Origin: a virus
Strand: one strand, 5' to 3'
DNA: 27,869 nt
IMG/VR virus record: IMGVR_UViG_3300027911_000056
Location: 1 to 27,869 of that record
Positions 1,353 through 25,119 of this stretch are shown here, piece after piece. The position numbers were made by a program, and so were the translations under genes. The first letter of the stretch is position 1. Every line of letters begins with the position of its first letter. The notes under the pieces are model-generated. The model was not told the DNA's origin and did not search any database. It was given only the letters and a program-made list of their open reading frames with translations.

Positions 1353-2108
<756 letters not shown>

Positions 2109-10988: not shown

Positions 10989-11978
10989 ATGGCATCAGCA
11001 GCAGCAACTCTGATTACGCCGGTACAGGTCTACTACGACAAGGTATTCCTCGACCGCGCTAAGATTGAGTTGCGTCACGACTTCGGAGCACAGGTCAAAA
11101 ATGTGCCCTTGAATAGCGGTCAGGTAGTTCGCTGGACGCGTTTCTCGCCTCTTGCGATTATCACCTCGGCCCTTTCAGAAGCGACAAACCCTGCAGAAGT
11201 AGCAATGACGGCTACCCAGGTATCTGCAACTCTTCTTGAGTACGGAAACGTCACGAACGTCTCCTCGCTCTTCTCGATGACGCAGATTGACGTAGACCTT
11301 AAGGAACACATTGAAGTTCACGGCCAGAATGCAGGCGAATCAATCGACCAGCTTATTCGTACCGAGCTTCACAGTGGCTCAACAGCACTGATCGTGGCCG
11401 GTACTCTTGGTAACCCAGCAGCACCTAATATTTCGGACATTCACTTGACTGACGTGTTCACCGGCGCAGCAGTCCGTCAGGCAGTCCGAACGCTCAAGCT
11501 CAACAAGGCGCAGCGTTTCGAGTCAGGACTCTATCGCGGCATTATCGGCCCTGCTTCGAGCTACGACTTGTTCGGCAACTCGGAATGGCTCGATGCTCAC
11601 CGCTATACGACTTCGGACGCTATCGAGCGCGGAGTAGTCGGCAAGCTTCACGGAGTTGAGTTCGTAGAGACTAACAACCAGTACGTCGCGCTCTCAGGAG
11701 GCTTCTCTGGTACTCCGGTTACGGCAGCTTCGGCTGGCGTCGCCAACGTCTACTCGACCTTCATCTTCGGCAAGAACGCTTATGGCGTCGTCAACCTCGG
11801 CTCTATCACGGCACCTACGGTTATCGTGAAGAATCCTGGGCCAAATGACACCTCGAACCCTCTTAACATGTTCTCGACTGTCGGATGGAAAATGCCATTC
11901 GCTACGAAGACCCTTAACTCTAACTGGGTTATTGAAGTTAAGACCTCGACGGCAGGAGCAAATACCGCAACCTTCTAA
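10989..11978 (+). CDS. Major capsid protein, N4-gp56 type, 329 aa
   Basis: The main shell protein, of the HK97 fold. I recognise the N4-gp56 family pattern: N-terminal RAKIELRHDFGAQVKNVPLN, then a conserved central block with VTNVSSLFSMTQIDVDLKEH and the ENIDQ-like AGESIDQLIRTELHSG, and C-terminal TVGWKMPFATKTLNSNWVIE. Length is near the family's usual 300-400. The gene starts five bases after the scaffold stop with a leader of AATAACTTAC and no Shine-Dalgarno site. It is followed 24 bases later by a strong terminator, so the scaffold and capsid form their own unit. Confidence 0.9.
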   Translation: MASAAATLITPVQVYYDKVFLDRAKIELRHDFGAQVKNVPLNSGQVVRWTRFSPLAIITSALSEATNPAEVAMTATQVSATLLEYGNVTNVSSLFSMTQIDVDLKEHIEVHGQNAGESIDQLIRTELHSGSTALIVAGTLGNPAAPNISDIHLTDVFTGAAVRQAVRTLKLNKAQRFESGLYRGIIGPASSYDLFGNSEWLDAHRYTTSDAIERGVVGKLHGVEFVETNNQYVALSGGFSGTPVTAASAGVANVYSTFIFGKNAYGVVNLGSITAPTVIVKNPGPNDTSNPLNMFSTVGWKMPFATKTLNSNWVIEVKTSTAGANTATF

Positions 11979-12002
11979 AAAGGAAGCAGTTATGCACAGA
12001 AG

Positions 12003-12025
12003 ATACCCTTTACAGGGTATTTTTT
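12003..12025 (+). terminator. Rho-independent terminator after the capsid gene
   Basis: Perfect 7-bp hairpin ATACCCT/AGGGTAT (12003-12009, 12014-12020) with a 4-base loop, followed by a T run to 12025. The stem can extend further through A-T and G-T pairs. It ends the scaffold-capsid transcript. Confidence 0.85.
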
Positions 12026-12037
12026 GTTATTTATAAT
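12009..12037 (+). promoter_or_regulatory. Consensus sigma70 promoter overlapping the terminator, leaderless
   Basis: TTTACA (12009-12014), 17-base spacer, TATAAT (12032-12037). The -35 covers the terminator loop and the spacer contains the right arm and T run. The expected start is about 12044, three bases before the ATG at 12047, so the mRNA would have essentially no leader. It drives the glycan cassette. Confidence 0.8.
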
Positions 12038-12046
12038 TAAAGGCAC

Positions 12047-12271
12047 ATGAACAGCGTAACGACGCTTCAGCTGCCAAATGGAATAGTTATCGACATTCTC
12101 GCCAAGAACGGGAAGATTGGCTATACCTTTGAATATGAAGGGCAGAATTATGGAACGGCAGTCAAACCAGAATCAAGAAGCTTGGCTTCTATTTCAGCTG
12201 CCTGCCTTTTGCTTTTGATAAACGCGCAAGAGACTTACAAGGAGCTAACAAAGGAAAAAAATGGAAAATAA
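12047..12271 (+). CDS. Hypothetical protein, first gene of the glycan cassette, 74 aa
   Basis: Starts at ATG 12047 right after the promoter at 12009-12037. The product begins MNSVTTLQLPNGIVIDILAK and appears to be a small alpha/beta protein, with a hydrophobic helix in the middle (ASISAACLLLLINA) too short and polar at its edges to be a clear membrane segment. No family is recognised. Its stop region overlaps the next gene by 11 bases. Confidence 0.6.
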   Translation: MNSVTTLQLPNGIVIDILAKNGKIGYTFEYEGQNYGTAVKPESRSLASISAACLLLLINAQETYKELTKEKNGK

Positions 12272-12581
12272 AAATCCAATCACGCGTGTCTTTCCTGATT
12301 TTGCGGACGAATTGGCAAAGATTGACCCTCGCCTTACTATCGTCCCTAATCCTAACCGCCCAAAGATTGCAAACATCAAGCTGGATGGGACTGACATATG
12401 CCCTATTCCGGCCTACGAGATTCGAGAGCTTCCTGACCCTGGCTACACCATTGAAGGCCCAGGCGGGAGAATGATGATGCACCGCTCGAAGCAAGAGGCG
12501 ATAATGCTTGTGAAGCATACTCTTGGCCTCATTCAAGACCCGAACGAGGCGGATAAGTTTTTCGGCCGCAACGGTTACTGA
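12261..12581 (+). CDS. Hypothetical protein, 106 aa
   Basis: Starts at ATG 12261 within the end of the previous gene. Unlike most genes here it has a good ribosome site (AAAGG seven bases upstream). The product is rich in Pro and Ile in its first half (PRLTIVPNPNRPKIANIKLD) and has a helical middle (RSKQEAIMLVKHTLGLI). No motif is recognised. The position in the cassette suggests a role in virion decoration, but that is inference only. Confidence 0.6.
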   Translation: MENKNPITRVFPDFADELAKIDPRLTIVPNPNRPKIANIKLDGTDICPIPAYEIRELPDPGYTIEGPGGRMMMHRSKQEAIMLVKHTLGLIQDPNEADKFFGRNGY

Positions 12582-12592
12582 AAGGAGAAACC

Positions 12593-13036
12593 ATGCGAGT
12601 AGTTCTTTTGCAGGGAGCATTTGAAATCCTGAACGCCGGTCACGTTCAAGTATTCAAACGCTGTCGCGCGCAGGGAGATATGCTTATTGTCGCCCTGAAT
12701 ACCAATAAGCTGCTCAAAAAGTACAAAGGAAGGGATGCAGTTCTCCCTTTCAGTCAGAAGAAGAAGATTCTTGAGGCGATTCGATGGGTGGACAAGGTTG
12801 TTCCCGCTCACGATTTCTCTCCCATGAAGCTTCTTGAAAAGTACAACGTGGATGTCTACTGCCTTTCCCGTGAATGGCAGTCAACCAAAGACGCTGAAAT
12901 CGAGTACATGAAGAAGAAAGGAGGCAAAGTCTTCTTTACTCGTGACTACAAGGTCGTGCGCACCAGTGGCATTAAAAAGTCCTTGCTTGCAGAAGCCGAA
13001 GACCAATCGGCTCTCGAAAGGAAGGCTGGGGTGTAA
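12593..13036 (+). CDS. Cytidylyltransferase-like nucleotidyltransferase, 147 aa
   Basis: The fold is that of the TagD/RfaE-type nucleotidyltransferases that activate a sugar or polyol phosphate with CTP or ATP. The family's GxFDxxHxGH appears as GAFEILNAGHVQ (residues 8-19): the second His and Gly are kept, but the first catalytic His is Asn (N14). The C-terminal signature RTxGI is present as RTSGI (123-127). The middle has the conserved basic/aspartate block FSQKKKILEAIRWVDKVVP. A strong AAGGAG ribosome site precedes the ATG. A hairpin (GGGGT/ACCCC, 13028-13032 and 13039-13043) overlaps its stop codon. The Asn substitution may alter activity. Confidence 0.75.
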   Translation: MRVVLLQGAFEILNAGHVQVFKRCRAQGDMLIVALNTNKLLKKYKGRDAVLPFSQKKKILEAIRWVDKVVPAHDFSPMKLLEKYNVDVYCLSREWQSTKDAEIEYMKKKGGKVFFTRDYKVVRTSGIKKSLLAEAEDQSALERKAGV

Positions 13037-13053
13037 AAACCCCATTTCAATAT

Positions 13054-13899
13054 ATGAAAATACATTTAGTTAATTATGAACAGGCGTGGAACGATGGCAT
13101 ACTTTCAAAGTTTGCACGGAGGATGTATGACGAACTGGAAAAGATTAAAGGCGTCGAAGTCTCTATTGGGAATGTTCCCGACCCTGAAGCTGACATCGTG
13201 CATCACATAAACTACGCTTCATATCGTCATTCCAGCACTATCAATACTCTGATGGTGACGCATATAGACACGCCAAGTAAAAAGGAAAATTTGCTCAAAG
13301 GAATGGAGACGGCTGATATGGGTATTTGCATGTCTTCTTCCCTACCAGATATTCTTACAAAAGAGCTACGTATTCCAAAGGAGAAACTCTCTTATGTTCT
13401 TCCGGCGCATGATTGCAAACCACGACGCTTTCAGATCGTGGCAATCTTAACAAATGTCTATCCTGACGGCTGCAAGCGAGAGGGAATGTTTACTGAATTG
13501 GTCAAAACGCTTGATAAGAACAAGTGGGCTTTTAGAATAATGGGAAGCGGATGGAATGACATTCTTGTCCCTCTTGTTGCCGACGGATTACAGGTGGATT
13601 ACTTCCCAAGTTTTGACGCAGAAAATCACCAGCGCATCTTAGAGTCTTCCGATTATTGTCTTTATTTTGGAAAGGATGAGGGGTCTATGGGCATCCTAGA
13701 CGCTGCTAATGCTGGCCTCAAGACTATTTCGACACCACAAGGCTTCCACTTGGATATTGGATTGGATTACGTTTTCGATACACAGGAAGAACTGAACAAA
13801 ATTTTCAAGAAGCTCAGCAGGAATAAAGTTGGGGATTTGTCTTGGAAGACATATACCAATGAACATATAAAACTATGGAAACAACTCCTAAGAAAATAA
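13054..13899 (+). CDS. GT-B glycosyltransferase, 281 aa
   Basis: A short GT4-like enzyme transferring a sugar from a nucleotide donor. The N-terminal half binds the acceptor; the C-terminal half contains the donor-binding pattern around residues 205-240, KDEGSMGILDAANAGLKTIS, where an acidic EGSMG segment replaces the usual E-x7-E of GT4. RIMGSGWNDILVPLVADGLQ upstream corresponds to the Rossmann strand and loop. No signal peptide or membrane segment is seen. The start has no ribosome site; the end overlaps the methyltransferase by 25 bases. Donor and acceptor cannot be named. Confidence 0.75.
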   Translation: MKIHLVNYEQAWNDGILSKFARRMYDELEKIKGVEVSIGNVPDPEADIVHHINYASYRHSSTINTLMVTHIDTPSKKENLLKGMETADMGICMSSSLPDILTKELRIPKEKLSYVLPAHDCKPRRFQIVAILTNVYPDGCKREGMFTELVKTLDKNKWAFRIMGSGWNDILVPLVADGLQVDYFPSFDAENHQRILESSDYCLYFGKDEGSMGILDAANAGLKTISTPQGFHLDIGLDYVFDTQEELNKIFKKLSRNKVGDLSWKTYTNEHIKLWKQLLRK

Positions 13900-14375
13900 A
13901 TCTCGGTTCAGGAAAAGATTACCGCGACGGCTACACCAACGTCGATAATCTTTCCATGTGGAAGGGCATGGTGGACGTGAATGCCGATTTAAAAATGCTG
14001 AAATATGAAGGTGGAGATTTGGACGAAATCCTGGCTTCTCATATCGCCATGTACATAGATACGATTGAGATGCCGATTCTCCTTAAAAGGTGGCTCGGGT
14101 GGCTGAAAGAAGGAGGCAAGCTCGTCATTGAGACAGGCGATTTGAAGAAGGTGGCAAAGATCATTGCCTATTCTGAGAAACCGGAGGAGATAAACGGCAC
14201 TAATGGAGTAATGCAATTGTTTGGCTGGGCTGAGACAAAGGGGCATACTTGGGCATGGTGTTATGAGACGCTAGAGCCTCTTTTGCTCGCTACTGGCTTC
14301 AAGAAGATTGAGCGAATTGACGGAGGCTATCACAACAGGCCGGAGAGGGACATAACAATAACAGCATGGAAATAA
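13875..14375 (+). CDS. SAM-dependent methyltransferase-like protein, 166 aa
   Basis: A class I methyltransferase with motif I as INLGSGKDYRDGYTNVDN (residues 8-25), where the Gly-rich turn binds S-adenosylmethionine, followed by an acidic residue in DVNADLKML. The strand-helix order continues through EILASHIAMYID and WLKEGGKLVIETGDL. In a glycan cassette it would methylate a sugar hydroxyl, though protein or small-molecule substrates are possible. It overlaps the genes on both sides (25 and 10 bases), so translation is probably linked. Confidence 0.75.
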   Translation: METTPKKINLGSGKDYRDGYTNVDNLSMWKGMVDVNADLKMLKYEGGDLDEILASHIAMYIDTIEMPILLKRWLGWLKEGGKLVIETGDLKKVAKIIAYSEKPEEINGTNGVMQLFGWAETKGHTWAWCYETLEPLLLATGFKKIERIDGGYHNRPERDITITAWK

Positions 14376-15328
14376 AAAAGTGCAATGTCGCAGTCGTGGG
14401 CGGCGCAGGCTTTCTTGGAAGCCACCTCGTAAATCACCTTATCGAGGATAGATTCTGCAAGGTGCTTGTCTTGGACAATCTCATAGCAGGCCATCGCAAG
14501 TTCATTCACCCTAAAGCCAAGTTTGAATGGTGCGATATTACCCATTCTGAAAGCGAGCTTAGAAAGTTTTTCGAGCAATACGAGATAGACTTTGTTTTCA
14601 ATTACGCCGCTTCACCCTATATTCCTGTCTCATTTGAAAGGCCGCTCCATGTTTTTGATATAAACGCTTCGGGAGCCTTGAAAGTGATTAACGCCGCGCA
14701 GGCAGCCGGGGTAAAAGGCATATTGCAGGTATCCTCTGCTGAAATCTACGGGGACGCTCCTGAACATAAGATTGACGAGAATTGGCCAGCACGTCCTCAT
14801 TCGACGTATGGCTCGGCAAAGCTTGCGATTGACTGCCTTGTGCAATCTCGCTTTAAAGAGGCTGGGACGCCCTGCATTGCGCTCAGGCAGTTTAACTGCG
14901 TAGGAGAGCGTGAGACGCACGAATACGTCATACCGGTCATTATAGAGCAATTGGCGAGAGGTTCTACGGTCAAGCTTGGTAACAATTCCTTTAGGGACTT
15001 CCAGTATGCAGGCGATGCCGTCCGAATGGCAGTAGAACTACTGGAAAAAGGCCAATTCGGGGAGGTCTATAACATGGGAAGCGAGGAGGGAATCAAGATG
15101 TATGACCTCGCAGCTCTTATCGGCGAGCTTATGGAAGTAGATTGCGAGGTAGAAGTAGACCCTAAGCGCATGAGGCCGTGGGAAATTTGGAGCTTACTTT
15201 CTGATAATACAAAATTGTATAAAGTTATCGACTATCGCCCAAAAACTTCATTAAGAGAAGCTCTCAAAAAGACGATAAAAGATTTTCACGATAATGGAAA
15301 TAAATGGTGCTATGAAAAAAATAACTAG
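14366..15328 (+). CDS. Extended SDR sugar epimerase/dehydratase, 320 aa
   Basis: NAD(P)-dependent nucleotide-sugar enzyme with the Rossmann motif GGAGFLG (residues 12-18), DITHSE after the second strand, the catalytic Ser in SSAEIYGD (123-130) and Y148-x3-K152 in YGSAK. This covers the GDP-mannose 4,6-dehydratase and UDP-glucose 4-epimerase group. A dehydratase followed by the nearby DegT-type aminotransferase would give a 4-amino-4,6-dideoxy sugar, but the motifs cannot separate epimerase from dehydratase. The C-terminus appears intact though shifted by overlap with the homing endonuclease that starts 17 bases before its end. Confidence 0.85.
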   Translation: MEIKKCNVAVVGGAGFLGSHLVNHLIEDRFCKVLVLDNLIAGHRKFIHPKAKFEWCDITHSESELRKFFEQYEIDFVFNYAASPYIPVSFERPLHVFDINASGALKVINAAQAAGVKGILQVSSAEIYGDAPEHKIDENWPARPHSTYGSAKLAIDCLVQSRFKEAGTPCIALRQFNCVGERETHEYVIPVIIEQLARGSTVKLGNNSFRDFQYAGDAVRMAVELLEKGQFGEVYNMGSEEGIKMYDLAALIGELMEVDCEVEVDPKRMRPWEIWSLLSDNTKLYKVIDYRPKTSLREALKKTIKDFHDNGNKWCYEKNN

Positions 15329-15761
15329 AAAAGGAGTTGAATTTGAGATTGATAAACAAGACGAGTCTGTTGTTGATAATTTAGTTTGGAGGATAGACCA
15401 CGGCTATCTTAGGAACAAGAGTGTTTATCTTCATAGGATGCTTCTCGATTTTCCTAAAGGTTGCATTGACCATATAGATGGAAATCCATTAAATAACAAG
15501 CGAAATAATTTAAGGATTTGTAGTCAGCAGGAAAATACGATGAATAAGCGTAAATCCCGCAATTCAAGTTCAAAGTTTAAAGGAGTAAGCTGGATTAAAA
15601 GAGACCGGAGATGGTACGCATGTATAAATAAAGATTACAAAACATATTCACTCGGAACATTTAAAGATGAAATCGATGCAGCGAAAGCTTATGACAAGAA
15701 AGCAATAGAAATGTTTGGTAAATATGCAAAAACAAACCTATGCAACCCTATCAAGAATTAG
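15312..15761 (+). CDS. HNH-AP2 homing endonuclease, 149 aa
   Basis: Free-standing homing nuclease inserted into the glycan cassette. The HNH part has H41 (VYLHRMLLDFPKG), D53-H54 (IDHIDGN) and N61/N66 (PLNNKRNNLRIC); an AP2 DNA-binding domain follows at about residues 87-142 (FKGVSWIKRDRRWYACI... SLGTFKDEIDAAKAYDKKA). The start chosen is ATG 15312 (MKKITRKG); an in-frame ATG at 15294 is an alternative. The gene is visibly more A+T-rich than its neighbours and overlaps both, 17 bases with the epimerase and 22 with the aminotransferase. It probably spread by homing and is not part of sugar synthesis. Confidence 0.88.
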   Translation: MKKITRKGVEFEIDKQDESVVDNLVWRIDHGYLRNKSVYLHRMLLDFPKGCIDHIDGNPLNNKRNNLRICSQQENTMNKRKSRNSSSKFKGVSWIKRDRRWYACINKDYKTYSLGTFKDEIDAAKAYDKKAIEMFGKYAKTNLCNPIKN

Positions 15762-16630
15762 AACAAAAATATGCTGCATTTGTTGGCGCTAAGCACGCTG
15801 TTTCTTGCAATAGCGGTACTGCTGCTTTACACCTTGGACTACTTGCTCTTGGAGTTGGCAAAGGAGATGAGGTTATCATCCCTGACTTCACGATGGCCGT
15901 TTGCGGCTTCGCTGTATCTTACTGCAATGCTACTCCCGTATTTGTGGATTGCGATGACAGTCTTTGCATGGATTGGCGCTTGATAGAAAAGAAGATAACC
16001 AGGAAGACGAAGGCAATCATGGCCGTACACATTTACGGCAGGCTTTGCAATATGAAGGAGATTATTAGGATTGCGAAGAAGCATAAACTAAAGGTTATTG
16101 AGGACGCTTGCGAGGCCCAGGGAGCCGTTTACAAATCAAAAGCAGACATAACCTGCTATTCATTCTATGAAAACAAAATCATCCACGCGGAAGAAGGCGG
16201 TATCTGTACGACGGATAATAAAAAGTACGCTGAAAGAATCGCTTATCTCAAAAATATGGCTTTTGGTGAAAAGCATGATTACTTCCACAAGGAAATAGGC
16301 TTTAATTATCGAATGCCTAACTCGCAGGCAAAATTAGCCTTGCAATCTTTGAAAGAAGTAAAAAAAGAGTTAAGGCGTCGTCGAAAGTTTGAATCTTTTT
16401 GTCGGGAAACTTTGCCAAAAGAATGCACAACGCTTCCTAAGCGAGATGTTGTTTGGGTCTATGATTATTTAGGTGAACCTGTTAGGGGTTTTATCACTGA
16501 TGGAATTGAAACATTGGTACAAACACGCCCCTTTTTTAAACCCCTTTCCTCCTTTCCGATGTATGGCGGCAAGTGTCAGTCTCCTAAGGCTAAGTGGTAT
16601 TCCGAAAGGGGACATTATATAAAATTATGA
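15740..16630 (+). CDS. DegT/DnrJ-type sugar aminotransferase, short at both ends, 296 aa
   Basis: PLP-dependent enzyme making amino sugars from keto sugars. The core is intact: CNSGTAALHLGLLALGVGKG (residues 23-42), D122 in VIEDACEAQGA that contacts the cofactor, and the Schiff-base lysine K146 in YSFYENKIIHAEEGG. It starts at a point corresponding to about 35-40 residues into a typical family member, because the homing endonuclease lies directly upstream, and it ends at SERGHYIKL where relatives usually go on by about 25-35 residues. The next gene overlaps its stop as ATGA. It may be active as a shorter form or impaired. Confidence 0.8.
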   Translation: MQPYQELEQKYAAFVGAKHAVSCNSGTAALHLGLLALGVGKGDEVIIPDFTMAVCGFAVSYCNATPVFVDCDDSLCMDWRLIEKKITRKTKAIMAVHIYGRLCNMKEIIRIAKKHKLKVIEDACEAQGAVYKSKADITCYSFYENKIIHAEEGGICTTDNKKYAERIAYLKNMAFGEKHDYFHKEIGFNYRMPNSQAKLALQSLKEVKKELRRRRKFESFCRETLPKECTTLPKRDVVWVYDYLGEPVRGFITDGIETLVQTRPFFKPLSSFPMYGGKCQSPKAKWYSERGHYIKL

Positions 16631-17271
16631 GCAACGTCACTCTCTACACCGTAATCACGAATGATAAAGACCCGATAATGGAGCAGGATTTTCCCATTAC
16701 TCGTTTCATAGATTCCTACGATAAGTTCAAAGACCCGCGTCGCAATTCTCGCATTCAAAAGATTCTCGCTCATAAATATATAAATACCGAGTTTTCCATT
16801 TACATGGACGGTAATATGAAACTGCTCGTTTCACCTGAAGAAATAATCAAGCGGTATATGGACGGCTATGACATGATGTTATTCACTCACGGCCTGAGAG
16901 ATTGCATTTATGACGAGGCGATGACTTGTGCCAAGCTCGGACTCGATGACCCAGAGCTGATTATCGAACAGGCCAAGCACTATGAAGACATGGAGTATGG
17001 AAAGCATAAAGGGCTTTTGCAGGGCGGATTCATCGTCCGAAGGCATAACAAGCGCGTAGAGGCGTTTAACGAGGCATGGTGGGCTGATTATTGCCGATAT
17101 TCGCGACGTGACCAGCTCTCTCTCATGCCAGCAGCGGACAAGGCAGGAGTTATCATCAACGCTGTCCCTAGAATGTGGCAAGTCTTGCCAAATGGTACTG
17201 CCGTAATAGGAGATGTCCTGCTTACCACTTTCCATAAGAACTTCGAGGGTAATTTCAACGAAAAGAAATGA
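16627..17271 (+). CDS. DUF616-type glycosyltransferase, 214 aa
   Basis: A GT-A-like transferase recognisable by the family's ordered motifs: YMDGNMKLL (residues about 57-65, DxD-like metal-binding region), RDCIYDEAMTC (about 88-98), the GL-x2-GGFIVRRHN block (about 127-140) and WWADYCRYSRRDQLSLMPA (about 151-169). This family includes plant TOD1/MUCI70 proteins and many bacterial and phage members. The sugar is unknown. The start at 16627 overlaps the aminotransferase stop (ATGA); an earlier ATG at 16594 would lie within that gene. Confidence 0.8.
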   Translation: MSNVTLYTVITNDKDPIMEQDFPITRFIDSYDKFKDPRRNSRIQKILAHKYINTEFSIYMDGNMKLLVSPEEIIKRYMDGYDMMLFTHGLRDCIYDEAMTCAKLGLDDPELIIEQAKHYEDMEYGKHKGLLQGGFIVRRHNKRVEAFNEAWWADYCRYSRRDQLSLMPAADKAGVIINAVPRMWQVLPNGTAVIGDVLLTTFHKNFEGNFNEKK

Positions 17272-18389
17272 AGATACTTTTTTATAGAAATGATTACGCC
17301 GCTAATGTGAACCGCAAGCTGGAAGACGGCTATGGTGGCGTAGGGGCTTACCGTATCATCTATCCTTCCCGATACGCCAAAGGGCATGATGTGGATGTAG
17401 TGGGGATAAACCTGTCTAAAAAAGGGGAGAGTTCTGAAAAGAAATGGTCACGAATCTTCACTGACTACGATGTATTTTGGACTACCTATTTCTATTCGCC
17501 AGAAGAGGCAAGTGCCATGTTCTACCATAGGGATAAGTTCAAGAAGAAAGTAATCATTGACCTTGATGACAACTATTTGGATGTTGCAAAGAGCCATCCT
17601 CTATACGACAAGCTAAAGGAAACTAAAAAGGACAGAGCATTCACTTCCACCATTTTGTCCTTTGCGGACGTTATAACCGTTTCGACCGAACCGCTGAAGC
17701 AGAAAATTGCGGAACACATGAAGAAGGTCTATGGATTGGAAAAAACAATCATAGTTATCCCCAACATGAACGAAAGGAAAGATTGGGACTTTCCTGCCGC
17801 TCCTAAAGACACAAATAAGTTCATTATCGGCTACTCGGGTTCCAATTCCCATTACGACGACCTTAAAATGGTCTTCCCGGCGATTGCCAAGATAATGGAT
17901 AAATATCCGCATGTCTATTTCGAGAGCATGGGGGCAATAGGCAAAGAAAACATCGAGCTATTCAGCTGTTTCAGCGAAAAGGCCAAGCTTCGGTGCGACA
18001 TTATGCCTTCTACTTGGACTTTCGGAGAATACCCAAAGCACCTTTCGACGATGAAATGGGATATTGGAATAGCTCCGCTTGTCGATACGGCCTTCACGCG
18101 ATGCAAGAGCCACATCAAGTTCATGGAGTATGCAATGTATAAGATTCCGACGATTGCCTCGCGCGTGTATCCTTATTACGTCCCTTGTTTCGGCAGGGAA
18201 GTGATAACTCACGATGAAACGGGAATGCTTGCGAAGCCTTCTGAGTGGTTTGGAATGATTGAAGAAATGATTTTGAATAAGGATAAGAGGGAAAATCTTG
18301 GAAGAAACGCTCACAAGCATGTGATTGAGAACTGGCAATATGATAAGCAATTTTCAGATGCAATAGATAAAGCCCTAAAATCTTTATAA
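17268..18389 (+). CDS. GT4-like glycosyltransferase, 373 aa
   Basis: GT-B enzyme with N-terminal GGVGAYRIIYPSRYAKGHDV (residues about 24-43), a shape typical of GT4 acceptor domains, and a C-terminal donor domain with IGYSGSNSHYDDL (about 192-204) and SHIKFMEYAMYKIPTIAS (about 284-301), where KFMEYA carries the conserved Glu of the E-x7-E motif. It ends ENWQYDKQFSDAIDKAL, a usual GT4 terminus. It is the last gene of the cassette and is followed by two hairpins. No membrane segment is visible, so it acts in the cytoplasm. Confidence 0.85.
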   Translation: MKILFYRNDYAANVNRKLEDGYGGVGAYRIIYPSRYAKGHDVDVVGINLSKKGESSEKKWSRIFTDYDVFWTTYFYSPEEASAMFYHRDKFKKKVIIDLDDNYLDVAKSHPLYDKLKETKKDRAFTSTILSFADVITVSTEPLKQKIAEHMKKVYGLEKTIIVIPNMNERKDWDFPAAPKDTNKFIIGYSGSNSHYDDLKMVFPAIAKIMDKYPHVYFESMGAIGKENIELFSCFSEKAKLRCDIMPSTWTFGEYPKHLSTMKWDIGIAPLVDTAFTRCKSHIKFMEYAMYKIPTIASRVYPYYVPCFGREVITHDETGMLAKPSEWFGMIEEMILNKDKRENLGRNAHKHVIENWQYDKQFSDAIDKALKSL

Positions 18390-18392
18390 TAG

Positions 18393-18457
18393 GCCGTATT
18401 ATTACGGCAAGTGCATAAAAAAATGCTCCCTTTTAATTGAGGGAGTATTCTTTTATC
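18393..18457 (+). terminator. Double hairpin and GTGCATAA element before the tail operon
   Basis: Hairpin 1 is GCCGTA/TACGGC (18393-18398, 18403-18408). Hairpin 2 is ATGCTCCCT/AGGGAGTAT (18423-18431, 18440-18448) preceded by seven A's and followed by TCTTTT, a terminator form that works on both strands. A GTGCATAA box begins at 18411, 47 bases before the ATG at 18458. TATTCT (18446-18451) could be a -10, giving a leaderless start. Confidence 0.7.
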
Positions 18458-19210
18458 ATGTCACTTCAATTCTCGGACACTTCTGCTTCTAAGGCCGGAC
18501 TCATTCAGGAATGCGAGGCAGCGGTCTTTGGCGACAATTCCTACGGGCGCATTTCAAATGACCCAAGCCTACTCGCGACCTTTACCCGCTACATTAACGA
18601 GGGATTGAATCGCGTAGTCTCTCTCATCCTTCTGGCTGACGGCCGCTGGCAGTGGGACGATAACAATAACACCGATTTCCCTATCGGCACGACTAGCCTT
18701 GTGACCACTCCGGGGTCTGAACAGCAGGATTACGCTTTCGCTATCAACTTCCTAAAGATTACACGCGTCGAAGTTCTCGACTTTGCTGGCAATTGGCAGC
18801 TTCTCAAGCCGATTGACCAGTCCGACATCTATGACCAATCTCTTACCGATTTCCTGAAGACTGCAGGACTGCCGATGTATTACGACAAGATTGCCAACTC
18901 GGTCTTTCTCTATCCAAAGCCATCGGCAACTGCAGTGACTGCAACTAACGGCTTAAAAGTCTGGTTCCAGCGGCCGCCTTCATACTTTACTACCTCTGAT
19001 ACTACGAAAGTCCCTGGATTCAACTCGATGTATCACCGCTTGGTAGCCCTTATAGCTTCGAGGGATTACGCTGCGGTCAAGCAGCTTTCCAATGCAAAGG
19101 TACTAAGCGACTTGGTGAATCAGCAGGAGGATTCCCTTGCGGAAAGCTATACGCTCAGGAATAAGGACGAGCATATAACCATGTCTGCTAAGAAGTACAA
19201 TTTCAGATAA
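18458..19210 (+). CDS. Head-tail adaptor protein, 250 aa
   Basis: Candidate connector below the portal. I recognise its pattern from podovirus-like phages: N-terminal TRYINEGLNRVVSLILLADG, DGRWQWDDNNNTDFPIGTT (residues about 54-72), YDKIANSVFLYPKPSATAV, FQRPPSYF and C-terminal LRNKDEHITMSAKKYNFR. Members follow the capsid and lead the tail module. The start is ATG 18458; the frame is open seven codons further upstream, but that part lies within the hairpin element. It has no ribosome site. The role is inferred from similarity and position. Confidence 0.7.
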   Translation: MSLQFSDTSASKAGLIQECEAAVFGDNSYGRISNDPSLLATFTRYINEGLNRVVSLILLADGRWQWDDNNNTDFPIGTTSLVTTPGSEQQDYAFAINFLKITRVEVLDFAGNWQLLKPIDQSDIYDQSLTDFLKTAGLPMYYDKIANSVFLYPKPSATAVTATNGLKVWFQRPPSYFTTSDTTKVPGFNSMYHRLVALIASRDYAAVKQLSNAKVLSDLVNQQEDSLAESYTLRNKDEHITMSAKKYNFR

Positions 19211-19416
19211 TGGCAACCTTTACCACACAGACTAAATCAGCAGATAGCTTCTCGACTCAGACGAAGAGTACGGACGCTTTCTCATTCCAGGCAAAGGCAG
19301 TTTCAACGCCAAACTTTCTTCAGACAGAGGGTAGTTTCTATCTCCTTCTTGAGACTGGAGACAAGATTATCCTAGAACAGTCAGTAGTCGGATACACTAA
19401 TCAAAACCGCTCATGA
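19210..19416 (+). CDS. Small tail-associated protein, 68 aa
   Basis: Starts on the last base of the adaptor stop. The N-terminal half repeats a short unit (TQTKSADSF / TQTKSTDAF / FQAKAVSTP), then ends with FYLLLETGDKIILEQSVVG, a segment I have seen in short proteins next to phage tail fibres. The role is probably structural. The stop overlaps the next start (ATGA). Confidence 0.6.
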   Translation: MATFTTQTKSADSFSTQTKSTDAFSFQAKAVSTPNFLQTEGSFYLLLETGDKIILEQSVVGYTNQNRS

Positions 19417-21377
19417 GCGACACAAAAATATCAGCACTGACAGCCTACGCAACGCCTCAGCCGACTGACGTGTTGCCTATTGTAGACCTGGGAGCCGGTC
19501 AGACAAAGAAAGTAACCTTTGCGACAATAGGAACAAATCTTCCAGCGGCTTCGGCAACGAATCAAGGCCCGCTGTCTTCTTCTGATTGGACTACTTTCAA
19601 CAATAAGTTCACCCTTCCTTCCCTCACTTCGGGTTCAGTCCTTTTTTCAAACGGGACAACGATTGTCCAGGATAACGCTAATTTCAATTGGGACGATAAT
19701 CATAACGTGCTTTCGATAGGAGGCTCGATTGTCGCTACGGGAGACAATAAGACTCTTATCACGGCAGGAGGAACTATAAATAACTATGTAGCCATCGCGG
19801 TACAGAACAAGAGCAATGGGGCGAGCGCGACTACCGATGTGTATGCCTCTGCTGATAATGACGGAACGACGCTCACGGGTCACTATACCGACATGGGTAT
19901 CCTCGGTTCGGGCTTCTCCCCTATTTCAAACGGAGAAATAAAGAGCGTTTCCATAAACGTAGCCGGTACCGGTTATTCAGTGAATGACGTTCTTACCATC
20001 TCTTCTGGAAATGGCGATGGAACAGTCACGGTAACGACGATTGGAGGCGGGGGCGTTATCCAGGCACTTTCCCTTTCTGCAAACGGCACAGGATACACGA
20101 CAGGAACCGCAATCGCTACTACGGGAGGCACTGGAACCGGAGCAAAGGTAAATATCACTTCGCTTTTGGACAATACGATTTATTCCGCGAATGATAATTA
20201 TGTGTACGGTTCAGGAGGGAATCTGGTTATTTCGACAGATACGCTTGGAAAGGAAATACCGTTTTCCGTAGGAGGTTTCGGTTCGACAAATGAGGTCGGA
20301 AGGTGGACTGCTACGGGATTAAAAGTTGGAAAAGCTGGAACGACACTCGGCACGATTTCACTGCAGGGCAACACTTCGGGAGCAACCATCCTCCAGCCTG
20401 CCGCAGCAGCTTCCGGAACTCTTACGCTGCCTTCGGCGACGGATACCCTCGTTGGAAAGGCTACGACTGATACCTTTACGAACAAGTCAATCAGCGGCTC
20501 GACTAACACCATAACGAACGTATCGCTCTCAACTGGCGTAACGGGAAACCTGCCTGTAACGAACCTCAATAGCGGAACTTCAGCTTCCTCTTCGACTTTC
20601 TGGAGAGGAGATGGCACATGGGCTACTCCGGCAGGAGGCGGCACAGTGACCTCGGTTTCGGTCGTAAGCACGAACGGCTTCGCTGGAACGGTAGCGAATG
20701 CAACCACTACGCCTGCAATAACCATCAGCACTTCGATTACTGGAGTTCTTCAGGGAAACGGCACCGCCATTTCGGCTGCGACGACCACTGGTTCAGGTTC
20801 GGTTGTCCTTGCGACCTCTCCCACGCTGACTACTCCAACAATCGGAGCGGCGACAGCGACTTCAGTAAACGGTCTCACTATAACTTCCTCAACTGGCACT
20901 CTTACTGTCACGAACGGTAAGACCCTTTCTGCAAGCAATACGCTGACCCTTGCGGGAACGGATTCGACGACGATGACCTTCCCTAGCACGTCAGCTACCA
21001 TTGCGCGAACCGATGCCGCTCAGACCTTCACTGGAACCCAGACATTTGCCAATACCGTCTTAACGGCGAATGCCATAACGGCAGTAAGCAATGCCGCGAC
21101 CATTCCCGTGACTTCCGGGCGAAACATCGTAACGAATAACTCGGCTTCGGGACTCACTATCACCCTGGCTACTTCTGGAGCGTCCAGTATGCAGACCTGT
21201 GTAGTGCAAATCTTGCCTTCTTCCGCAGTGGCGCAGACTCTTACCCTGGTAAACACGGAAAATTCAGCTATCACGAGCGTTCCTGCCAACACTGGGTCGT
21301 CAACGACGATTCCAATAACTCTGGGTTTCATGTACAACGCCGGTACGAGTAAGTGGACTTGCGTAGCTTCATCTTAA
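19413..21377 (+). CDS. Tail fibre or spike protein, 654 aa
   Basis: A long beta-rich Thr/Ser/Gly/Ala protein of the kind that forms trimeric tail fibres. It starts with MSDTKISALTAYATPQPTDV, a common fibre N-terminus that would attach to the virion, has SVLFSNGTTIVQDNANFNWD near residue 75, the frequent SSTFWRGDGTWATPAGGGTV segment (about 392-411), and ends in a beta domain (NNSASGLTITLATSG to FMYNAGTSKWTCVASS). The repeated short beta segments in the middle suggest a beta-helix or shaft. No enzymatic motif is visible. It probably binds the cell surface. Confidence 0.8.
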   Translation: MSDTKISALTAYATPQPTDVLPIVDLGAGQTKKVTFATIGTNLPAASATNQGPLSSSDWTTFNNKFTLPSLTSGSVLFSNGTTIVQDNANFNWDDNHNVLSIGGSIVATGDNKTLITAGGTINNYVAIAVQNKSNGASATTDVYASADNDGTTLTGHYTDMGILGSGFSPISNGEIKSVSINVAGTGYSVNDVLTISSGNGDGTVTVTTIGGGGVIQALSLSANGTGYTTGTAIATTGGTGTGAKVNITSLLDNTIYSANDNYVYGSGGNLVISTDTLGKEIPFSVGGFGSTNEVGRWTATGLKVGKAGTTLGTISLQGNTSGATILQPAAAASGTLTLPSATDTLVGKATTDTFTNKSISGSTNTITNVSLSTGVTGNLPVTNLNSGTSASSSTFWRGDGTWATPAGGGTVTSVSVVSTNGFAGTVANATTTPAITISTSITGVLQGNGTAISAATTTGSGSVVLATSPTLTTPTIGAATATSVNGLTITSSTGTLTVTNGKTLSASNTLTLAGTDSTTMTFPSTSATIARTDAAQTFTGTQTFANTVLTANAITAVSNAATIPVTSGRNIVTNNSASGLTITLATSGASSMQTCVVQILPSSAVAQTLTLVNTENSAITSVPANTGSSTTIPITLGFMYNAGTSKWTCVASS

Positions 21378-21381
21378 AATC

Positions 21382-21954
21382 ATGGGATGCCTAAACGAAA
21401 ATTTTGACTCATACAGCAACGGAAACCTGACCGGCAATGGCTCTTGGTCGGGGAATGCTACCTGGCAAGTTGAGTCGAGCGTCGTTCAGGCTGGAACGCA
21501 TGCAGCAACAGTCAATAGCAATAGCAGCTTGCTCATAAGTAACACGGCCATTTCAGCTTCGAGCGGCATTCAGTCCTTTTATGTTCGCAGCGATAACGTG
21601 ACTAGTACGAGCGCTGTCATAATCAGCTTCGTAGAGGGAAGCACTGAGAGATTCGCCATGCTCGCCAGAGGTTCCGATTCAACCTATCGCCTGAGAGGAA
21701 CGAGTGACGTGACTATCGGTACCGTTGCGGCAAATACCTGGTATCAGGTGGAGATTCAATTCGATGGAGTAGGCCAGCAGATTCGAGCCAGGATAAACGG
21801 GGGAACGTGGACTTCATACATGGCAGCTGAATCGAATTGGACGACTATAAATAAAATCACTCTTTCTTCAGGAAATCAGGCTGTTAATTGGTATTGGGAC
21901 ACTTTCACCAACAACACCCCAGTGACTTCTTCGGGCTTCCTAATGTTCATGTAA
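21382..21954 (+). CDS. Jelly-roll (LamG/concanavalin-like) tail protein, 190 aa
   Basis: Begins MGCLNENFDSYSNGNLTGNG and contains the alternating strands and NTWYQVEIQFDGVGQQI pattern (about residues 112-130) typical of concanavalin-like sandwich domains that bind glycans or decorate virions. No cleavage motif is seen. Located between two adhesin-type proteins, it could be a glycan-binding decoration or fibre tip. The fold is inferred from local similarity; no specific ligand can be named. Confidence 0.65.
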   Translation: MGCLNENFDSYSNGNLTGNGSWSGNATWQVESSVVQAGTHAATVNSNSSLLISNTAISASSGIQSFYVRSDNVTSTSAVIISFVEGSTERFAMLARGSDSTYRLRGTSDVTIGTVAANTWYQVEIQFDGVGQQIRARINGGTWTSYMAAESNWTTINKITLSSGNQAVNWYWDTFTNNTPVTSSGFLMFM

Positions 21955-21958
21955 ATAT

Positions 21959-23299
21959 ATGAACCCCGATCTACAGACAGAAATAGACGCACTCGCATCC
22001 AGGATTGACCAACTCGGCCAGTCTTCGGATATTCCCTTTGATGTAGAGGCTGCGTTTCGAGAGAGGCTTGGACTTAAAACAATAGGGACAAGCACTGGCG
22101 TCGTTCATGCTAATTCAGGCGTCCTTTCCGCTTCCGGTATCGTTTCTACTGATTTTGCTACGAACGTTTTGGATACTGACGGCACTCTTTCTGCAAACTC
22201 TGATACCAGAATCGCTACCCAGAAGGCAACAAAGACTTATGTAGATGCCAATGGTAATTTCAATGACTTTGGAGACGCTTCTGATGGCAACGGCGTAATC
22301 ACGGGGAATACCACTTACACCAGAGACATGTTTTATGACAATCTCACCATAAACACGGGTGTCATTGTTGACGCTGGAGGATTCAGGGTATATGCAAAGA
22401 CTTCCGCGACGGTAAACGGAACATTCCATAGGAATGGAAACGATGGTTCAAATGGAGGAGACGGAAGTGCTGGTTCAGGAACGGGCGGTTCAGGAGGCGC
22501 AGCAGGCGCAGGTGGTGCGGCTAAGACGGCAGGTTCTCTGCCCGGAAGCCCTGCCGGAACTTCAGGAACTGCTGGGGGACTCGGAAGCACCGGAAGCAAT
22601 AACGGCGGTTCAAATGGCGGTGCAGGTTCGACCACTTCTAGCCTTTCATATCTCATCGGTACAACGGCTGCGGCGGCAAGCTCGGCAGGAGGAGTAGGAG
22701 GCAATGCCAGCCTTAGCGGTGGAAGTGCTGGAACCACTGGTTCAGCAGGAACCTTTACGGCCTCGACGAATCCTCCAAGAAATGCAGTCAGCGCAGTGAC
22801 CTGCATAGATACTCAGGGAGTAGTCCAATATAACGTATCGGCAGTCTCCCCTTCTGGGACAGGAGGTGGTGGCGGGGGTGGCAATAACTCGGTAAGCAAT
22901 TATGGAGGCCACGGAGGCGGCGGTGGTGGCAATGGAAGCAATGGCGGGGTATGTTTCTTATTTTCAAAGCTTATTACTATCGGGGCTTCCGGCGTTATTT
23001 CTGCAAACGGCGGCAATGGAGGAAATGGAGGCAAGGGTGGAAATGGGACATGCAACTTGACCTCTGCAACTGGAGGAGGAGGCGGAGGTGGTGGCGGCGG
23101 CGGCAACGGAGGCAATGGAGGAGCGGTAATCCTGGGATACAAGACATTAGTAAATAACGGACAGATTTTGGTAAGCGGAGGATTGAAAGGAACAGGAGGA
23201 ACTTTCGGAAACCAATGCGGCCTGTCTGATTTTAACGGAGTCGCTGGTTCTGACGGGAACGCAGGCTCTTCAGGAACTATTTATTCACTACAACTATGA
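21959..23299 (+). CDS. Glycine-rich adhesin-like tail protein, 446 aa
   Basis: The first 35 residues are helical (MNPDLQTEIDALASRIDQLG), then a beta-rich linker with a repeated fibre motif (TRIATQKATKTYVDANGNF), then from about residue 150 to 440 very high glycine with runs of up to 11 Gly plus many Gly-Asn units, interrupted by short hydrophobic stretches such as VCFLFSKLITIGASGVISAN. Glycine-rich motifs separated by short variable loops are how gp38-type adhesins of T4-like phages build packed polyglycine helices with loops binding the receptor. That is the best comparison, not proof of homology. The stop overlaps the next start (ATGA). Confidence 0.65.
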   Translation: MNPDLQTEIDALASRIDQLGQSSDIPFDVEAAFRERLGLKTIGTSTGVVHANSGVLSASGIVSTDFATNVLDTDGTLSANSDTRIATQKATKTYVDANGNFNDFGDASDGNGVITGNTTYTRDMFYDNLTINTGVIVDAGGFRVYAKTSATVNGTFHRNGNDGSNGGDGSAGSGTGGSGGAAGAGGAAKTAGSLPGSPAGTSGTAGGLGSTGSNNGGSNGGAGSTTSSLSYLIGTTAAAASSAGGVGGNASLSGGSAGTTGSAGTFTASTNPPRNAVSAVTCIDTQGVVQYNVSAVSPSGTGGGGGGGNNSVSNYGGHGGGGGGNGSNGGVCFLFSKLITIGASGVISANGGNGGNGGKGGNGTCNLTSATGGGGGGGGGGGNGGNGGAVILGYKTLVNNGQILVSGGLKGTGGTFGNQCGLSDFNGVAGSDGNAGSSGTIYSLQL

Positions 23300-25119
23300 T
23301 TTCTCTACCAAAACAGCCTTCTCCGTATCAGCCTCCTACTTGGATTCAGAATAATAACTCTGATGTGAATGGTTCCCTATGGGCCTCTTTTGGGATAGAC
23401 CTTTCAGAGAATGAAGGCAAGCTCAGGGTTGGCAAAAGGCTTTTGCTCAATTGGGGAACAGGAGATGATGCTAATATGACGAGTTATCCGGTAGGATTCT
23501 CCTCGATTCCTAACGTCAATGGAATCTTCACTGTTGCGGGAGGATATGTTTGGCAAAGTGGCAATAATTATCCATCTTCAACTTTTGCGAGGCTTGTAAA
23601 CGGCAGCGGAGGCGTATCTGGCGCGCCTACCAATTGCGATTCGACCATTTCTGACATTGCCTTCCTAAGCAATACTGTCGGCAATTTCCTTTTTGTCACT
23701 ACGAACTCGACAGATGTTTACAAGACTGCAGATGGCCTGACATGGACAAGCAATTCTATCGGGGCTTCCGGTTCAAGCGGCAGAATGATGACGCCTTACT
23801 CCGGGAGGATGTACATGGCTTCCGGGGGCAACACCGTGGTTTCATGGTCTGACCCTTCCAGCCCTGCCAATAGCGGAACATATACCGTCACTCTTGGAAC
23901 GAATGAGACTATCACTTTTCTCCGAAGCTCATCGAATCGCATTTGGATTGGAGTAGTGAACTTGAATAACAAAGCGTATGTATACGAGTGGGACGGTACT
24001 GCAGCCGAGGTCACAAAGTCGTATCGAATGGAAGCAAATGGCGCACTCGCATGCGTCATTAAGGACGATGTGCCATGGGTAGTCGATTCAAACGGAAGCC
24101 TCCTTGTCTGGAACGGCGGTACTTTCATCCGACAGACTTCCTTCTTCCGCAAGAATAATAAGCTTCTGCAAAATGCCCTCGGCTCGAATAATAGCCGCTT
24201 CATACATCCGAATGGCATGTCCATCATCAACAAGCGGATACACATACTGATTGACGGGCGCAATTATGATTCAAACTCGACCCTGGAAGAGACTATCGCT
24301 TCAGGCATCTGGGAGTATGACGACACGCGAGGGCTAGTTCATAAATACGCCATCGGACAGACGAAGAGCGGGGGGACTATCCAGGACTTCGGGCAGCCGA
24401 GAATCGCAGGAGCGGGGGCATTGTCAGAGTTCAATCTTCCTAACACCTCTGGGGTACGCAATGGCACATTTCTTTGCGGTGCTTCCTACTACTCTGATGC
24501 GACGACAGTAACATCAGGCATATTCTATGATGATACGAATGACACATTGAAGAAGGGCGGCTACTTTATCACCACCAAGCTATACGCCGCTGACGAAAAT
24601 GGCCTGCCATCGGTACAGAACATCTGGCAGAATAATTACGTCCTCTACAAGAAGCTTCTTAACTCGGCAGATGAGATAGTGGTCAAGTATCGCGTATCGG
24701 AAGCAGACCCTATCGAAGCAACTATCACCTGGATTTCTTCTGCGACTTTCACTACCACTACGGATGTAACCCAATATTGGACTTCAGGGACTGGCGGAGA
24801 GGTCGAGATACAGAATGGCATCGGAGGCGGCGGATGCTCGCATATAATAGGCATCGTGAATAATTCAGGGACTTATACCGTAACGGTAGACGAGACATAC
24901 GCCCTTGCTTCGGGTACGGCAAAGGCGCGATTCCAGTCATGGAAAAAGATAGGAAGCATCGTTCTAAATAATTCTAAGGCCGATGGCGTTACTTTTGACC
25001 AGGAAGGAATGGGGGATTTAACCAATTGGATTCAGTTCAAGGTGTGCATGATTTTCACAGGAAAAGACGAGATAGAGAAGATGCTTATAATAAACTCAAA
25101 CGTAAATCCAGCTCACTAA
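23296..25119 (+). CDS. Large structural tail protein, possible beta-propeller, 607 aa
   Basis: Starts in ATGA overlap with the adhesin. The sequence has repeated Trp/Tyr-Gly-Ser units such as VYKTADGLTWTSNSIG, VYEWDGTAAEV and VVDSNGSLLVWNGG spaced at about 35-60 residues, as in beta-propellers, followed by a beta-sandwich-like C-terminal third. Such proteins form the tail hub or nozzle in podoviruses. No catalytic motif is seen. Family placement is inferred from repeat character and location only. Confidence 0.6.
   Translation: MISLPKQPSPYQPPTWIQNNNSDVNGSLWASFGIDLSENEGKLRVGKRLLLNWGTGDDANMTSYPVGFSSIPNVNGIFTVAGGYVWQSGNNYPSSTFARLVNGSGGVSGAPTNCDSTISDIAFLSNTVGNFLFVTTNSTDVYKTADGLTWTSNSIGASGSSGRMMTPYSGRMYMASGGNTVVSWSDPSSPANSGTYTVTLGTNETITFLRSSSNRIWIGVVNLNNKAYVYEWDGTAAEVTKSYRMEANGALACVIKDDVPWVVDSNGSLLVWNGGTFIRQTSFFRKNNKLLQNALGSNNSRFIHPNGMSIINKRIHILIDGRNYDSNSTLEETIASGIWEYDDTRGLVHKYAIGQTKSGGTIQDFGQPRIAGAGALSEFNLPNTSGVRNGTFLCGASYYSDATTVTSGIFYDDTNDTLKKGGYFITTKLYAADENGLPSVQNIWQNNYVLYKKLLNSADEIVVKYRVSEADPIEATITWISSATFTTTTDVTQYWTSGTGGEVEIQNGIGGGGCSHIIGIVNNSGTYTVTVDETYALASGTAKARFQSWKKIGSIVLNNSKADGVTFDQEGMGDLTNWIQFKVCMIFTGKDEIEKMLIINSNVNPAH

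Follow-up and report, generated by a model that had tools for sequence, protein, structure and literature searches.

A conserved, modular glycan locus that is linked to the major capsid protein (MCP) lies between the MCP gene and the adaptor-position gene of a short-tailed, uncultivated phage. In all 47 loci compared here, sequences in this slot contain the same core pair, a 106-residue protein (u106) and a glycosyltransferase (GT3), with varying genes between them. From this arrangement we infer a capsid-coupled virion glycosylation locus, with the capsid or another head protein as acceptor, a reading to which we assign a probability of about 0.62. Few cases of virion glycosylation are known in phages, and the cassette would be a capsid-adjacent variant with a swappable sugar supply.

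Results

The window, that is, the whole stretch of DNA analyzed, is a 27.9-kb tailed-phage record from IMG/VR that encodes a terminase, a portal, a capsid and, further downstream, tail-type proteins. An INPHARED search for its close DNA relatives returned none. Distant relatives of the capsid occur in podoviral Bacillus Pagevirus, Streptomyces Beephvirinae and the environmental podovirus MW202801. Ten ORFs, all on the plus strand, separate the capsid gene from the next conserved virion gene (Table 1), and family matches bore out the preliminary description in placing three glycosyltransferases, a nucleotidyltransferase, a short-chain dehydrogenase/reductase (SDR), an aminotransferase and a methyltransferase-like protein (weak matches) between capsid and adaptor. 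That description was incomplete, however, as it overlooked an HNH-AP2 homing endonuclease and also lacked the core/variable structure of the cassette.

Table 1. Features of the cassette and its flanks; positions refer to the window.
Feature	Position	Strand	Evidence
Major capsid protein (MCP), left anchor	10989..11978	+	phrog_1357
Rho-independent-terminator-like hairpin 3′ of capsid gene	11996..12027	+	folding z −6.0
Sigma-70-like promoter match within left hairpin; unproven	12009..12037	+	11/12 matches
u74, 74-aa conserved protein, no family match	12047..12271	+	common in closer relatives
u106, 106-aa core gene, no family match	12261..12581	+	adjoins capsid in 47/47 full loci
Cytidylyltransferase-like nucleotidyltransferase, TagD/ECT-like	12593..13036	+	PF01467 E 5.5e-12
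GT1, GT-B-fold glycosyltransferase, GT4-like	13054..13899	+	weak in Pfam; predicted structure
Small SAM-methyltransferase-like protein	13875..14375	+	weak: phrog_5399 E 0.013, Methyltransf_11 E 0.18
Extended SDR, NDP-sugar 4,6-dehydratase/epimerase	14366..15328	+	E 5.6e-49
HNH-AP2 free-standing homing endonuclease, SDR/aminotransferase junction	15294..15761	+	phrog_99 E 9.7e-40
DegT/DnrJ/EryC1 sugar aminotransferase, short form common to its clade	15740..16630	+	E 1.1e-75
GT2, TOD1/MUCI70-type glycosyltransferase, GTG start	16594..17271	+	PF04765 E 5.5e-18
GT3, GT4-like glycosyltransferase, core gene	17268..18389	+	phrog_7162 E 1.6e-35; in 47/47 full loci
Right boundary, hairpin 1	18393..18408	+	folding test
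Right boundary, hairpin 2, terminator-like	18422..18449	+	folding test
Adaptor-position gene, right anchor	18458..19210	+	named by position only

Two scans of IMG/VR for the capsid protein yielded loci L002–L051 and L055–L085, of which 46 run from capsid to adaptor and, together with the window, make up the set of 47 (MCP identity about 41–93%). Because the searches used the capsid, this set is not biased toward glycosyltransferases. Analysis with tblastn and profiles located GT3 and u106 in the capsid–adaptor slot of every locus; the ORF table lists each of them only 46 times because overlapping frames mask GT3 in L045 and u106 in L044. Frequent disruption of the genes in relatives, named beforehand as evidence that would speak against the cassette's proposed role, was not observed. 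The shortest intervals (1.5–2.1 kb) have the order capsid, u106, up to two small ORFs, GT3 and adaptor, and the longest (9.1 kb) feature additional GT1, GT2, SDRs, aminotransferase, nucleotidyltransferases, cupin, sugar C-methyltransferase and O-methyltransferases; an RmlA-type nucleotidyltransferase or UDP-glucose dehydrogenase occurs in a few loci. Gene content can change between close relatives, as L004 and L021 have 92% of capsid residues in common, yet just 55% of their cassette gene types.

Comparison of pairwise distances across 45 loci revealed that both core proteins diverge with the MCP (r 0.84 for GT3 and for u106), whereas correlations with MCP distance are lower for the adaptor (r 0.57), gene content (r 0.42) and the SDR (r 0.28), and core gene distances correlate less well with those of the adaptor (r 0.60–0.65). 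Shared ancestry alone yields a positive r, so the contrast between these correlations carries more weight than their values, and the correlation of the middle genes with capsid distance is what shared ancestry alone would produce. A scan with GT3 reached a sister lineage with capsids about 35–42% identical, in which a single ORF of 546–637 aa, shortly 3′ of the capsid gene, encodes a GT3–GT2 fusion; in several of these loci, genes for GT1, an SDR, a C-methyltransferase, a cupin protein and an aminotransferase come next. The short gene that precedes the fusion probably encodes a u106 relative, as indicated by hhalign (72%, pairwise E 4e-6).

The preliminary description had proposed a look at capsid–adaptor spacing in relatives that lack the cassette. 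In MW202577, which has a related portal and adaptor and no cassette, only a few small ORFs lie between the capsid and adaptor genes, but the capsid belongs to a different family (phrog_267). The presence of this adaptor without a cassette indicates that the cassette tracks the capsid and not the adaptor. The capsid fold does not itself require a cassette, since none is annotated in Pagevirus and Beephvirinae, whose capsids are 29–33% identical.

Both boundaries of the block feature hairpins. Perfect-stem terminators occur 3′ of the capsid gene in 20 of the 47 loci (2.2 expected) and 3′ of GT3 in 10 (1.4 expected). The left boundary had been described as a terminator–promoter, and the terminator-like hairpin stands; the promoter-like site shows no enrichment in relatives (8/47 loci against 7.9 expected), and conservation of a promoter inside the hairpin was rejected on this basis. 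The site is regarded as unproven because it lies within the hairpin and is not enriched. The double hairpin reported on the right was confirmed (folding z −6.9). The adaptor-position gene beyond it had no match among PHROG and PDB profiles, and it most likely starts at ATG 18458 rather than at TTG 18437, the start assigned previously.

For u106, a small alpha/beta structure was predicted with confidence, although comparison of the model with PDB and viral structures revealed no significant fold match. The GT3 profile matches structures of the GT4 class, a broad fold class that also has lipids, polysaccharides and small molecules among its substrates. Structure and profile comparison of the enzymes, as proposed in the preliminary description, was successful for GT3 (GT4) and for GT1, whose model (pLDDT 81) aligns with GT-B/GT4 enzymes (Foldseek E 7e-9; Z 15, rmsd 13.1, 259 aligned), but neither GT1 nor GT2 has a significant match among PDB sequences.

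The nucleotidyltransferase departs from the TagD/ECT signatures HxGH and RTxGISTT, featuring NAGH and RTSGIKKS instead; the replacement of HxGH by NxGH is common to its relatives in L007, L012, L017 and L055. The SDR contains the glycine-rich NAD motif GGAGFLG and a YxxxK motif (YGSAK) expected of extended SDRs. Its SSAEIYG motif lacks the full TDE triad that SDRs of other loci possess (STDEVYG), although it retains the glutamate of dehydratases. The aminotransferase scores far above the cut-off of its family (255.5 bits against 19.8) and its PLP-binding catalytic Lys146 is invariant in 22 aligned members, but it lacks the regions found at the N and C termini of the family. Truncation by the neighboring homing endonuclease was considered and rejected, as the short form is also found in L004, L007 and L008, which lack the endonuclease at that junction. 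The closest solved relative of the aminotransferase is perosamine synthase. Among NCBIfam models, the SDR and the aminotransferase score best against the partner models LegB, a 4,6-dehydratase (157.8, cut-off 475), and LegC (211, cut-off 420), respectively, which represent enzymes of the legionaminate/bacillosamine type; on these scores they are not members of either family. The product of the pair is most likely a 4-amino-4,6-dideoxy sugar. The amino- or methyl-sugar chemistry suggested earlier is supported, both by these partner models and by the sugar enzymes of relatives.

Locus L038 contains 24 in-frame TGA codons inside conserved genes. A broken cassette was considered and rejected, as these stops are TGA read as glycine: of the 25 in-frame stops (24 TGA and one TAA), 16 stand at positions where relatives most often have glycine, and several of these glycines are nearly invariant. 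None of the other loci shows this pattern, and the window itself does not use code 25 because TGA is the stop in nine of its 32 genes. Reading of TGA as glycine is known from Absconditabacteria, Gracilibacteria and some of their phages (PMC10746230, PMC13059738), and the host of at least this one lineage member is probably one of these TGA=Gly Patescibacteria. A search of GTDB genomes with a first capsid profile returned no host. A second profile found L164 (52% identity) on a 4-kb contig in a Caldisericia MAG; this is probably a binning error.

Discussion

A mechanism is proposed in which GT3, acting in the cytoplasm, would add the first sugar to a virion protein, and GT2 and GT1 would lengthen the chain. 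The acceptor would most likely be either the capsid subunit or an adjoining short head protein. The SDR and the DegT aminotransferase could supply an NDP-4-amino-4,6-dideoxy sugar by 4,6-dehydration followed by 4-transamination; this sugar may in turn be modified or complemented through the methyltransferase and the CDP-type nucleotidyltransferase. Exchange of the middle genes, to which resident homing endonucleases may contribute, would change the sugar of the coat and leave the core transferase matched to the capsid. The terminator 3′ of the capsid gene probably serves to keep the enzyme dose below that of the capsid.

The main rival is that during infection the enzymes produce or alter a glycan of the host surface as auxiliary metabolic genes (AMGs), for superinfection exclusion or episymbiont adhesion, which we consider unlikely, if clearly the most serious alternative. 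The enzyme types match O-antigen nucleotide-sugar pathways, and 46 such genes (galE, rmlB, rmlD, gmd and others) in groundwater Patescibacteriota phages have been read in this way (PMC12911398); the code of L038 likewise suggests that part of the lineage infects Patescibacteria. Against this reading, GT3 and u106 diverge with the capsid. No GtrA flippase was detected in 17 long lineage contigs in searches where the controls matched, and TM-like segments are nearly absent, with two in one small protein (L039) among 356 cassette ORFs, although host flippases could be used instead. Integrase was likewise absent from all 17 contigs, some of which may be fragments, while the controls matched; there is thus no sign of lysogenic conversion. 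The slot could mirror late expression alone. Even so, the slot, the constancy of GT3 and u106, their tracking of the capsid, the absence of integrase and the missing cassette of MW202577 with its different capsid together make virion glycosylation the better supported reading at the level of sequence. The preference for it stated in the preliminary description accordingly fares well on position (47/47 loci), divergence and the scarcity of membrane proteins, with the glycan itself still a prediction.

Glycosylation of tail or receptor-binding proteins instead of the capsid is an improbable variant. The products encoded downstream (19413–25119) have a high content of Ser, Thr and Gly, and the cassette sits between head and tail genes, but the core gene distances fit the capsid (r 0.84) better than the adaptor, and the adaptor of MW202577 does without a cassette. 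Phage glycosyltransferases can also modify DNA, as in T-even phages. A pentose on cytosine is described for Shewanella phage Thanatos (PMC12838424). Glycosylation of the genome for protection from restriction is very unlikely here: the cassette is placed among head genes, its aminotransferase/C-methyltransferase pathways and three glycosyltransferases are unlike known base-glycosylation routes, and a thymidylate-synthase-family (ThyA-like) enzyme occurs in just one of the 17 long contigs, the window being only part of a genome. We give equally little credence to a homing-endonuclease hot-spot that collects passing sugar genes with no common role. HNH or NUMOD3 endonucleases do occur in the slot of the window, L012, L014, L021, L037 and L044, and the middle genes turn over rapidly; against this stand the presence of the core pair in every locus, invariant catalytic residues such as Lys146 of the aminotransferase, the fusion of GT2 and GT3 in the sister lineage, and the fact that almost all recognized genes encode sugar enzymes.

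Under virion glycosylation, a glycosyltransferase locked to the capsid and a swappable sugar supply would make this modification a lasting characteristic of a widespread, uncultivated phage lineage; the close capsid relatives compared here all have a glycosyltransferase beside the capsid gene. A more speculative extension, offered tentatively, is that u106 and GT3 form a capsid-specific core and the exchangeable cassettes define the "coat serotype" of each phage, with TGA=Gly Patescibacteria among the hosts. If true, the sugar genes of such phages, at present classed as host-surface AMGs, would be genes for the virion coat. The locus thus offers a testable alternative to the host-surface auxiliary metabolism reading of such genes (PMC12911398), and is a potential source of small capsid-matched sugar-modifying enzymes.

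A search of the literature, with most subscription papers outside its scope, found no capsid-adjacent cassette of similar kind. Among phages, virion glycosylation with MCP glycans is reported for cluster F1 mycobacteriophages such as Che8 (Freeman et al. 2023, as cited in PMC11256854). Glycosyltransferases are phage-encoded there as here (GT1, GT2 and GT3), with MCP glycans reported for Che8 and predicted for the cassette. In the F1 phage Maravista the glycosyltransferase genes are found toward the 3′ end of the genome and do not adjoin the capsid gene, whereas the cassette has a glycosyltransferase locked to the capsid gene and a sugar-nucleotide pathway. The phi92-type (Justusliebigvirus) cluster includes a GT3-like GT-B protein (26% identity over 71%) that adjoins other glycosyltransferases; unlike the cassette, it does not adjoin the capsid gene but sits close to the genes for DNA polymerase and endolysin, in a genome of 148 kb. 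Glycosylation genes are also borne by temperate phages, as in the gtrABC seroconversion clusters, but no GtrA, membrane glycosyltransferase or integrase was found here. Chloroviruses and Megavirinae are described as glycosylating autonomously, with sugar pathways and glycosyltransferases proposed to decorate virions (PMC5408694, PMC10117803). The cassette likewise combines these two components, but those are giant eukaryotic viruses with an unrelated capsid and layout.

The distant capsid relative MW202801 (podovirus ctQWt234, Manatee Spring), known from an environmental genome alone, also features a multi-enzyme block 3′ of its capsid gene. Its annotation (Fe-S oxidoreductase, GT, PhyH, methyltransferase, NodB-like, GT) differs from the sugar genes of the cassette, although the last glycosyltransferase is a GT3 relative (26% identity), and the PhyH–methyltransferase–NodB set is also present in L045 and L046.

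The slot between the capsid gene and the adaptor-position gene also houses endonuclease genes: an HNH-AP2 homing endonuclease gene lies at a junction within the window's glycan cassette (Table), HNH or NUMOD3 genes are likewise present in the slot of relatives L012, L014, L021, L037 and L044, and such endonuclease genes may drive gene exchange there. In three relatives the capsid gene itself is interrupted by approximately 0.6-0.7 kb, perhaps an intron or intein; L036 and L037 seem to have the interruption at a common site. Some relatives carry sugar-type genes (PhyH, NodB, MT, NTase, SDR) 5' of the capsid gene, and thus a second location for such genes exists.

Two cassette enzymes are variant forms. 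NxGH replaces HxGH in the nucleotidyltransferase subfamily of the window, L007, L012, L017 and L055, a variant kept across relatives, and the DegT aminotransferase is a short form, common to the window's clade, that is missing about 35 residues at the N terminus and about 25 at the C terminus.

In the sister lineage (capsids about 35-42% identical to the window's), the glycosyltransferases GT3 and GT2 are fused in a single ORF of 546-637 residues (L139, L141, L144, L146, L163 and others), lying a short way 3' of the capsid gene. A short ORF in this lineage resembles GroES by eye, and could conceivably encode a capsid-folding co-chaperonin.

Throughout relative locus L038, conserved glycine positions carry in-frame TGA codons, which indicates from sequence that it uses genetic code 25, and this code suggests a host within the Absconditabacteria or Gracilibacteria.

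One minus-strand product of the window contains a long low-complexity, Ala/Tyr/Asp-rich stretch, AAYAAYAAAYADAAAA.

Table. Locations of features in the window and related loci
Feature	Location	Context
HNH-AP2 homing endonuclease	window 15294-15761	junction between SDR and aminotransferase genes
NxGH nucleotidyltransferase	window 12593-13036	
Short DegT aminotransferase	window 15740-16630	
Low-complexity protein	window 1353-2108 (- strand)	
Interrupted capsid genes	L019:711-2429; L036:3085-4640; L037:7937-9542	
Upstream sugar-type genes	L084:1067-2619; L055:427-891; L074:2207-3211	5' of capsid gene
GT3-GT2 fusion	L139:6001-7641	sister lineage
Short ORF	L139:5478-5738; L144:5420-5689	directly 3' of capsid gene, sister lineage
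In-frame TGA codons (example)	L038:14395-15513
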